A stretch of DNA of 64,000 bases from Aurantiacibacter marinus (GTDB lineage Bacteria > Pseudomonadota > Alphaproteobacteria > Sphingomonadales > Sphingomonadaceae), in NCBI RefSeq assembly GCF_001021555.1, contig NZ_LDCP01000001.1:806001-870000 (forward strand). The letters run 5' to 3'. Of the stretch, positions 7,600 through 10,133 are shown piece after piece (position 1 is the stretch's first letter; each line of letters begins with the position of its first letter). Position numbers and translations under genes: made by a program. Under the pieces are notes generated by a model. The model was not told where the DNA came from. It did not search any database and saw only the letters and a list, made by a program, of their open reading frames with translations.

Positions 7600-7653
7600 C
7601 TTCAGGAAAGCACCGTCCTGGTGCAGACTGCCATTCCCGTCACATCTGCTTCA

Positions 7654-7711
7654 GACACAAAAAAGGGCGCTGTAAGCACCCTTCTTCGTATAGTTTGTGT
7701 CGGCTTTTTTT
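7654..7711. terminator. nested bidirectional terminator between engB and the 15-codon ORF
   Basis: The outer stem GACACAAA (7654-7661) pairs with TTTGTGTC (7694-7701) and on the plus strand is followed by GGC and seven T (7705-7711), ending the engB operon. An inner stem AAGGGCGC (7663-7670)/GCACCCTT (7676-7683), with one G-U pair on the minus transcript, is followed there by TTTTGTGT and ends minus-strand transcription. The minus-strand TAA stop of the mini-ORF shares bases with the plus-strand T-run. Confidence 0.75.
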
Positions 7712-7757
7712 AGACGTGACGTCCGCCAAAAAGCCAATCCCAGAAACCTTTACCCAT
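7710..7757 (-). CDS. 15-codon small ORF with hairpin-sequestered ribosome site
   Basis: The reading frame encodes MGKGFWDWLFGGRHV and stops with TAA. It has a near-perfect Shine-Dalgarno TAGGAGA six bases before the ATG, better than most genes in this window. That Shine-Dalgarno sits in a perfect 7-bp hairpin (7764-7784). The frame lies 58 nt past the stop of the EAL-domain gene on the same strand and is followed by a terminator stem. The peptide is aromatic and amphipathic (two Trp, two Phe, basic end), so membrane association is conceivable. An in-frame ATG at 7799 would give 29 residues but lacks a good ribosome site. No family is recognised; translation is inferred only from the signals. 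Confidence 0.55.
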   Translation of the reverse strand: MGKGFWDWLFGGRHV

Positions 7758-7763
7758 GGCGAC

Positions 7764-7784
7764 TCTCCTAGTTGATGTAGGAGA
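7764..7784 (-). promoter_or_regulatory. Shine-Dalgarno-sequestering hairpin of the 15-codon ORF
   Basis: On the minus-strand RNA, UCUCCUA pairs perfectly with UAGGAGA across a 7-nt loop. The second arm is the Shine-Dalgarno of the small ORF at 7757. Such occlusion suggests translational control by temperature, a trans-acting RNA or upstream ribosome movement; which one applies cannot be read from sequence. Confidence 0.6.
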
Positions 7785-7814
7785 AGGTGCGTTAACCATG
7801 GTTGTTTGTAAAGT

Positions 7815-10133
7815 CTAAACCATGTTTTTCAGAAGGAATTTTTCCTTATCTTTATGAAAATCAAGGAGTTTATCGATTGGGATGGGGCGAGATATCCCGA
7901 ATCCTTGCGCCACAAGGCACCCGGAATCGCGCAATATCGTTAACGTTTGCGTGTCTTCGACCCCTTCAGCGACCACGATGATTCGCAAATCTTTCCCAAG
8001 TTGCAGGACGTTGCGCACAATGCCGGCCGCCTTTTCGTCATTGGCCATCTGGGCAATAAACAGGCGGTCAATTTTCAATTCGCCGAAGGGTAGTCGCAGC
8101 AGCGCTTCGAGGCTGGCGGCGCCAACGCCGAAATCATCCATGGAAATCTTTGCGCCAAGCGCCTTCAACTCACCCAGGATTTCCGCAGCACGATCAAGAT
8201 TGGAAATACGATAAGTCTCGGTGATCTCCAGCGTCAGCCTGCGCGGTTCAAAGCCGGTTTTTCGCAATACTTCCGACACCAGATCAACGATGGCATGTTC
8301 ATGCACCAGCGTCGCCGAGATGTTGACAGCAACCGGTATGCTCAGCCCGCCATTTTCCATCGCGTTTCCTGCTTTGCAGGCTTCCTCCAGCACGAAGCGG
8401 GTCAGATGGCTCATACGGCCAGCAGTTTCACACTGGCGGATGAAATTGTCTGGCGGGATATGGCCGCGCACTGGATCATTCCAGCGGACCAGTGCTTCAA
8501 CTCCAACGATCTCGCCCGTCTGCACCATGACCTTGGGTTGATAGACGAGATAGATTTCACCGTTCGAAAGCGCAGCGTCGATACGGGCCTGAAGAGAGAT
8601 ATTCCAGATAAGGTCTTCGTCCGACGTCGTGTCAGCAATCGCGATCGGCTCGAATGTTTCGTTGGTCAGCTCGGCAACAGCGACCGCAGATGCGAGGCGC
8701 CGCGACACATTGGGACTGGGAGTGATATCGACACCGAAAGTGATGCCGACATCGACCTGCTGATCACCCACAATCAACGGCGATGAGAATAGCGCGCGCA
8801 GACCTTCAAGGTGTTCGTGCAGCAGCGCCGGCTCTTTTTCCGGCAGGGTCCAGGCTATCAGATGGCCTTGGCCCAGATAGATTGTCGCGTCCTGCGTCGC
8901 CGCTTTCAAGCGACCGATAATGCGCAGCAGATATTCCGAATGCAGTTCCTTGGGCAGGGTGCGGCGCACCTGTTCGAACCGGTGGATTTTCGCCACGATG
9001 ATGGCGGGCAAGGTCTCGGCGGCTGCGCTGTCTGCTTCAAGCGCAGCGAAAGTTGGCAGATTTGTATCGGCATCGATCAGTGTGAAAGAATCCTTCCACA
9101 GTGATCGCAATCGGAAAATCGCATAGATCGCAATCAATCCCATCGGTCCTGACAGCCCCACGCGCCAGCCCACATGCGCTGCAACTATGAGTCCGATCAA
9201 AATGGCCACGACAATCGCGCCATATGCAATACGGCGCCACCGCCAGAATTGAATTTGTCCGATTGCAAGCAGGAGTGCGAAGGCAAAGAATGTAACATAG
9301 GCTCCGCCGATGTAGCGCGCTCTGCCTGCCATAAGAGTTTCCGCAGCGTAGACATGGATCAGTGTAGGAGAGACATCTGTCAGTCCGGGAATACTGATTG
9401 GGCGGCCGTCAGCGCGGTTCTCGCTGCCAATTACGAATATCTTGTCACGGAGATCGGTGGGCAATCCATTGCCCGATCGCGCTTCCTGAAGCGAAAGCAC
9501 AGGTATCGTGTCTAGCGCGAGATCATAGCCGATCGGAAACCGTTCTCCCGCAACACCTGTGGTGCCGGCTATCTGCGCAGCAAGATTGGGCAGATCGTTT
9601 TCGCCGAAACCCACAACATATGGCGCGTCCCATACGTATCCCATGAAGTTCCGAAACAGATCGCCGCCTACTTGATTTACATCATGAGCAATAATCGAGA
9701 TGGATTGATTGCGGCGCAATTGTCCGTTCAGCCCTGTTCGAACATCCTGGACAAGATAGGCTCCCGGCCCGAAGTCGAGCAATGCCGAGTTTAAATCGTT
9801 ATCGATTTCCGCAGTCGTGGCTGTATCGAAAACACTGTCGATGTAGATGGACTCTGCGCCAGCAACGTTCAGCTGACGAACAAGTTGGGCAAGCTCTACG
9901 CGCCTCGATGGAAACTCCGGATCGGACAGATCCTGCTGGCTGCTGATGAATATAATGTCGCCCGAAGCAGACGTGGTGACCATTCTGTTCTGGGCAGTCC
10001 AGATGATCTGATCGATCGGATTGAGCAGTGTCAAAACCGTCAAGACAAGCGAAATCAGCCCGGCCCAGAGCACATGCCTGAACCGATCATTGCGTCGGAC
10101 CCTTGTCCGTTCTGTCGGCTTTGGTCCGACCAC
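7815..10133 (-). CDS. CHASE2 - degenerate GGDEF - EAL membrane protein
   Basis: 772 residues. One membrane helix at about 21-37 is followed by an extracytoplasmic CHASE2 sensor domain to about 270, then three helices (about 280-342), a GGDEF-like domain (about 352-495) and an EAL domain (about 512-765). The EAL domain keeps VEALVRW, NISATLV, EITET, MDDFGVGAAS, KIDRLFI and VAEGVED, so cyclic-di-GMP phosphodiesterase activity is likely. The GGDEF part has no GG(D/E)EF loop (GQGHLIAWTL occupies that region), so it is probably a regulatory, non-cyclase domain. The start is a GTG at 10133 with AAGGG about seven bases upstream. It is monocistronic apart from the small ORF that follows. Confidence 0.92.
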   Translation of the reverse strand: MVGPKPTERTRVRRNDRFRHVLWAGLISLVLTVLTLLNPIDQIIWTAQNRMVTTSASGDIIFISSQQDLSDPEFPSRRVELAQLVRQLNVAGAESIYIDSVFDTATTAEIDNDLNSALLDFGPGAYLVQDVRTGLNGQLRRNQSISIIAHDVNQVGGDLFRNFMGYVWDAPYVVGFGENDLPNLAAQIAGTTGVAGERFPIGYDLALDTIPVLSLQEARSGNGLPTDLRDKIFVIGSENRADGRPISIPGLTDVSPTLIHVYAAETLMAGRARYIGGAYVTFFAFALLLAIGQIQFWRWRRIAYGAIVVAILIGLIVAAHVGWRVGLSGPMGLIAIYAIFRLRSLWKDSFTLIDADTNLPTFAALEADSAAAETLPAIIVAKIHRFEQVRRTLPKELHSEYLLRIIGRLKAATQDATIYLGQGHLIAWTLPEKEPALLHEHLEGLRALFSSPLIVGDQQVDVGITFGVDITPSPNVSRRLASAVAVAELTNETFEPIAIADTTSDEDLIWNISLQARIDAALSNGEIYLVYQPKVMVQTGEIVGVEALVRWNDPVRGHIPPDNFIRQCETAGRMSHLTRFVLEEACKAGNAMENGGLSIPVAVNISATLVHEHAIVDLVSEVLRKTGFEPRRLTLEITETYRISNLDRAAEILGELKALGAKISMDDFGVGAASLEALLRLPFGELKIDRLFIAQMANDEKAAGIVRNVLQLGKDLRIIVVAEGVEDTQTLTILRDSGCLVAQGFGISRPIPIDKLLDFHKDKEKFLLKNMV

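Follow-up and report, generated by a model that had tools for sequence, protein, structure and literature searches.

A conserved candidate microprotein gene beside a CHASE2-EAL gene in Aurantiacibacter marinus and the hairpin in its leader

The locus and its features

The window, meaning the whole stretch of DNA that was analysed, comprises 64,000 nucleotides of Aurantiacibacter marinus contig NZ_LDCP01000001.1 (positions 806,001 to 870,000). On its minus strand a CHASE2-EAL gene is followed by a 15-codon open reading frame with a Shine-Dalgarno (SD) sequence and by a terminator, and the convergent gene engB lies on the other side of the short frame (Table 1). The ATG, the length of the frame, the SD and its six-base spacer (GTCGCC), all reported in an earlier sequence-only reading, were re-read exactly in the sequence. 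That reading had made the SD one arm of a perfect 7-bp hairpin, which was confirmed by both sequence and fold, TCTCCTA pairing over its full length with TAGGAGA. It had also described a terminator stem after the stop codon. Folding showed a strong hairpin at ∼7690-7652 that, with its T run, looks like a terminator (z of -7.2 for a 165-nt region); a simple terminator scan had overlooked it. The same-strand EAL gene upstream was likewise recovered, as CHASE2-EAL by Pfam, but the reported distance of 58 nt was corrected to 57 nt, counted from the end of the EAL stop codon at 7815 to the ATG. A sub-threshold match to the Rfam sRNA STnc50 was recorded opposite the terminator, at 7616-7693 on the plus strand (30.6 bits, gathering threshold 55), and is probably a chance match to the terminator hairpin.

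Table 1. Coordinates of the features discussed, as positions in the window
Feature	Position	Strand	Basis or remark
15-codon microprotein ORF MGKGFWDWLFGGRHV	7710..7757	minus	ATG 7757-7755, stop TAA 7712-7710; homologs and in-frame selection
Shine-Dalgarno TAGGAGA, 3' arm of hairpin	7764..7770	minus	Sequence, fold, sequestration statistics
Anti-SD arm TCTCCTA	7778..7784	minus	Between predicted -10 and predicted +1 of internal promoter
Promoter-like element GTTTAG-ACTTTACAAACA-N3-ATGGTTAACGCA	7788..7820	minus	Conserved; overlaps EAL stop
Intrinsic terminator of microprotein unit	7652..7690	minus	Fold; convergent engB may also use it
CHASE2-TM-degenerate GGDEF-EAL gene, linked partner	7815..10133	minus	Pfam CHASE2 and EAL; predicted active c-di-GMP phosphodiesterase

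The microprotein family and its linkage to the CHASE2-EAL gene

Searching the family with the 15 residues was enough to turn up short open reading frames of other genera that share the core. A peptide profile then gave matches in ∼56 of 398 genomes, with a best E of 5e-14; this count is rough, as only some of the first-look candidates were scored and several of the weakest matches may be false. With all searches combined and genera counted by genome label, relatives were found in about 44 genera of Sphingomonadaceae (GTDB sense), named records including Sphingobium, Blastomonas, Sphingosinicella, Sphingorhabdus, Parasphingopyxis, Chakrabartia, Alteraurantiacibacter and Altererythrobacter. The relatives are 11-41 aa long and share the core [KR]GFW[DE]WL[FLM]GG. 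Fifty-two distinct members were parsed (one start being placed by eye), and nearly all have an ATG and an SD. Outside the window's genus the N-terminus is rich in Lys and Arg in most members, and a GGGW tail is frequent. At one locus (L076 in genome G397, ∼2601, plus strand) a second putative WDWLF-type sORF (MERTMRIWDWLFHRGTR) lies in tandem right after the first.

Within the genus, single-base codon differences in the reading frame comprised 800 synonymous and 307 nonsynonymous changes, that is 72% synonymous against an expected 24%, and the two wrong frames gave 24% and 23% in the same comparison; the members are related, so the pairs and the counts are not independent. We regard this contrast between frames, read from codon changes, as decisive for protein-level selection. 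Lack of conservation and a neutral synonymous-to-nonsynonymous ratio, either of which the sequence-only reading had named as counting against its peptide, are thus contradicted by the relatives in about 44 genera and by in-frame purifying selection within the genus. A chance ORF in a structured 3' UTR would be in keeping with a length of a mere 15 codons and with the absence of family model matches, but it is refuted by conservation: selection is specific to the reading frame, HMM matches in other genera extend to E 1e-14, and the frame is kept where the EAL gene is not next door. We therefore see almost nothing left for that explanation. In-frame purifying selection, recurrence in about 44 genera and a leader structure distinct from that of control genes (below) together make it well supported that the 15-aa peptide of the window represents a genuine conserved protein gene overlooked by annotation.

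Five longer members had no match in Pfam and NCBIfam up to E 5, Rfam gave none at the gathering threshold (thermometer, riboswitch and antisense RNA families included), and the strings of the peptide core were not found in the literature searched. Conservation across about 44 genera is evidently possible for a protein gene of 11-15 codons that is missing from the family libraries searched. Class-wide searches with the peptide HMM and with CHASE2-EAL gave no convincing members beyond Sphingomonadaceae, returning chance frames or EAL-only paralogs. Matches of the profile to glucose-6-phosphate isomerase in the PDB (best E 0.068) were rejected, as they look like a short chance motif.

CHASE2-EAL lies immediately upstream on the same strand for 49 of the 52 members. 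In the reverse test, 55 of 57 CHASE2-EAL loci were followed by an SD-ATG aromatic sORF of the peptide type, mostly starting 57-65 nt past the CHASE2-EAL stop. A strict Trp-core filter was passed by 52 of these 55; in the other three (L164, L199 and L202) there is Tyr or only one Trp. The shortest are of 11 codons, for example MFGSIWDWIFN and MRRSIWDWIFS. The remaining two loci, L177 and L185, carry diverged hydrophobic sORFs without Trp in the same place (MRDILNTIIGGSR, and MIDLIAIALGSRRGS with a GTG start), which are useful for discerning what is truly conserved. Among 36 further loci with weaker CHASE2-EAL matches 14 have the peptide, the other 22 being paralogs or unclear, and in nine genomes with two CHASE2-EAL genes the peptide stands beside one copy only. 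Every peptide-bearing genome checked also has an EAL ortholog.

Downstream genes vary across relatives and are frequently convergent; going by the N-terminal sequence alone, some encode flavin-reductase-like, PntA-like or Prs-like proteins. This bears on whether the frame is an attenuator leader peptide, its Trp codons and terminator governing a downstream gene. The Trp/Phe attenuator leader peptides trpL and pheL consist of a very short aromatic ORF with hairpins and a terminator, an anatomy that the locus resembles. Unlike them, the peptide unit has no conserved downstream target gene and persists when parted from its neighbour. In the window (engB) and in many relatives the next gene is convergent, it is not conserved, no conserved same-strand biosynthetic gene lies downstream in the window or in the relatives looked at, and Trp is replaced by Tyr or non-aromatic residues in some members. 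Attenuation is accordingly given very little weight.

A terminator-like hairpin was found within 110 nt past the stop in 92 of 99 members (5.7 in shuffles). In three genomes of a Blastomonas clade (G158, G337 and G358) the EAL ortholog lies elsewhere and has no peptide, while the peptide unit keeps its promoter element, hairpin, terminator and usual downstream neighbour. The peptide gene is therefore an independent gene rather than just part of the 3' UTR of the EAL mRNA; its presence does not depend on the position of the EAL gene. In a congener (L286, genome G379) the EAL frame is broken by a frameshift in the assembly, while the micropeptide (MGGSIYDWLFGGRAG) is intact and its promoter element and hairpin region persist.

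The promoter-like element and the leader hairpin

The element before the window ORF has a -35-like TTTACA (7812-7807) and a predicted -10, CACCTT (7789-7784), that is weak, as it is in the genus generally. Two promoter types were distinguished, type A in the window's genus and its allies and type B in the other lineages. In type A, CTTTACAAACA-N4-TGGTTAA is nearly invariant at fixed spacing; some of these letters were preset by the expression with which members were collected, most of the spacing and flanking letters being unforced. The type A element was unique in the window's genome in a genome-wide search allowing up to 2 mismatches. The peptide gene probably has a promoter of its own.

Alphaproteobacterial promoters activated by CtrA carry TTAA-N7-TTAA(C), TTAACCAT, near -35 (PMC6180460, PMC7200025), the consensus being TTAA-N7-TTAAC (PMC7200025; similar in PMC6180460). 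In many lineages boxes of this kind overlap the -35-like element of the peptide gene. In type B, TTAA-N7-TTAAC with at most 1 mismatch was found at the -35-like position in 29 of 47 members, against 1.6% of shuffles. An element of the TTAACCAT type also precedes the EAL gene, TT[AT]ACCAT occurring in 34 of 57 upstream regions (0.3 expected). On the strength of these matches before both genes, control of the peptide promoter by CtrA is well suggested for the type B lineages. The case is weaker in the window itself. Unlike the known CtrA promoters, its genus has a degenerate box, TTTA-N7-CAAAC plus a reverse ATGGTTAA; for half of the type A members the best match to the full CtrA consensus was no better than in shuffles. 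A CtrA-like half-site, TTTGTTAACCAT, is conserved before the CHASE2-EAL gene, upstream of 10133 on the minus strand of the window and in orthologs.

Leaders were compared with the start regions of 48 other genes. The two promoter types had mean folding z values of -2.99 and -2.46, where the controls had -0.07 and -0.48. The median probability of an unpaired SD was 0.20 in the one type (controls 0.52, p 4e-8) and 0.28 in the other (controls 0.49, p 2e-4). The accessibility effect appears with leaders cut according to promoter type; an initial test with a 42-nt leader gave no effect in the longer-leader lineages. The stem arms differ by lineage (TCTCCTA/TAGGAGA, CTGTCTCC/GGAGACAG, CGTCTCC/GGAGACG and CCCCTTGTC/GACAAGGGG), and next to the SD core both G-C and A-T pairs occur among members of the same geometry, a sign of covariation. 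Stem strength and sequence vary widely among members, and a stem that sequesters the SD is retained across lineages although its sequence has changed, in line with the conservation asked of the hairpin by the sequence-only reading. An SD-sequestering hairpin in the leaders is well supported.

Transcription starts were predicted from spacing, as -35, N17, -10 and then 7 nt. Of the bases that pair with the SD, 92% precede the predicted +1 in type B; in type A the share is 71%, some arms stretching beyond it. In type B, 79% of SD partners fall within the nine bases before the predicted +1, against 15% in shuffled leaders. Most of the anti-SD arm falls between the predicted -10 and +1, and the hairpin would therefore probably form on long read-through RNA alone. 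The predicted accessibility of the SD is 0.20-0.25 on the long RNA and increases to 0.56-0.62 on RNA beginning at the predicted +1; for the window it is 0.001 on the long RNA and 0.59 on its own RNA.

The proposal that the peptide is translated only when the hairpin is opened holds as far as the SD-masking hairpin itself is concerned; it presumes a single transcript, against which stands the position of the anti-SD arm, largely between the predicted -10 and +1. A reading close to that proposal has the same microprotein with the hairpin as a conditional switch on its main transcript, opened by temperature, an sRNA or a protein. Pairing of the SD across lineages with co-changing stems would fit such a regulated, thermometer-like element too, and the type A arms that partly pass the predicted +1 speak for it as well. 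Against it count the location of most of the arm before +1, the absence of any Rfam thermometer or riboswitch match, and the wide variation of the stem in strength and sequence. CsrA was considered and rejected as the opening protein, being absent from the genome, with ACARGGA in only 5 of 52 leaders. We consider a switch of this kind possible but doubtful.

A masked SD before a small hydrophobic peptide is also what would be looked for in a type I toxin paired with an antisense antitoxin. Many members, however, are at 11-15 aa too short for a transmembrane helix, the gene is syntenic next to one enzyme across about 44 genera, and no antisense RNA family of Rfam was matched; a toxin is highly improbable.

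Proposed mechanism and closest known systems

The eight catalytic residues (E, N, E, D, D, K, E and Q) are invariant in 54 of 54 EAL orthologs, and three TM-like segments surround the CHASE2 domain. From the retained residues and these segments the partner is predicted to be an active membrane phosphodiesterase. Its adjacency to the same gene in about 44 genera, the RNA hairpin and the probable promoter of its own suggest that the peptide is a very small partner of this enzyme, made under tight control. Tight linkage and CtrA-like elements common to both genes make it likely that the peptide modulates the neighbouring phosphodiesterase.

Linkage alone does not prove an interaction between the two; the congener with an intact peptide beside a broken EAL frame speaks against it, as do the three genomes in which the genes stand apart and need not be neighbours. 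The microprotein may instead act on another target, such as a membrane, cell-cycle or polarity factor, the linkage reflecting shared control only. Peptide and EAL gene stand at separate sites in three genomes, the core resembles a short interfacial amphipathic segment, and the CtrA-like elements at both genes would be expected of shared control. Yet nearly all CHASE2-EAL orthologs of the group adjoin the peptide though the downstream genes change, and an EAL ortholog was present in each peptide-bearing genome checked. A different target is conceivable and, we think, somewhat unlikely.

In the preferred account, that of an independent microprotein gene whose product modulates the neighbouring phosphodiesterase, the unit would run from a promoter bearing CtrA-like boxes through a short leader and the ORF to the terminator. 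On RNA reading in from the EAL gene the anti-SD arm would mask the SD and the gene would be silent. RNA from its own promoter would lack most of the arm, given the latter's place mainly between the predicted -10 and +1, and would be translatable. The peptide would be made upon firing of its own promoter and not via leakage from the upstream gene. Being aromatic and amphipathic, it would most likely bind and modulate the adjoining membrane phosphodiesterase, and c-di-GMP turnover would thereby be tied to the CtrA programme. Computation supports the conserved protein-coding gene, the linkage, the hairpin, the terminator and the independence from EAL position; the transcription start, CtrA control, gating and target we infer. 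Taken whole, the account seems to us plausible, if slightly short of probable. A stricter form, in which a trans-acting microprotein of 11-41 aa, among the smallest conserved bacterial protein genes, is a dedicated CHASE2-EAL regulator and in which solely its CtrA-timed own transcript is translated and read-through RNA never (a chromosomal T4 late-gene gate), is put forward only tentatively. The microprotein and the c-di-GMP phosphodiesterase form a ready pair for testing how tiny proteins tune second-messenger enzymes. The leader would offer a compact means for a nested gene to remain silent on read-through RNA, an arrangement that to our knowledge is known mainly from phage T4.

Hairpins at the ribosome-binding site (RBS), nested with promoters, have been described for the T4 late genes and homing endonucleases e, soc, I-TevI and segB, the RBS being masked on long upstream transcripts and free on RNA of the nearby promoter, which lacks the 5' arm (PMC2988022). 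The unit in the window resembles this gate in that, by computation, its SD is masked on the long RNA at the probability given above. A start at the predicted +1 would place most SD partners upstream of the unit's own RNA. The unit differs in being chromosomal and alphaproteobacterial, in having a putative CtrA-type promoter in place of a T4 late promoter, and in its product of 11-41 aa.

In Escherichia coli the small proteins of ycgZ-ymgABC are controlled by the degenerate EAL protein bluF through BluR (PMC3509220). There too small proteins are genetically tied to an EAL-type gene; unlike bluF, the EAL protein studied here keeps all catalytic residues, and the likeness is one of genetic arrangement.
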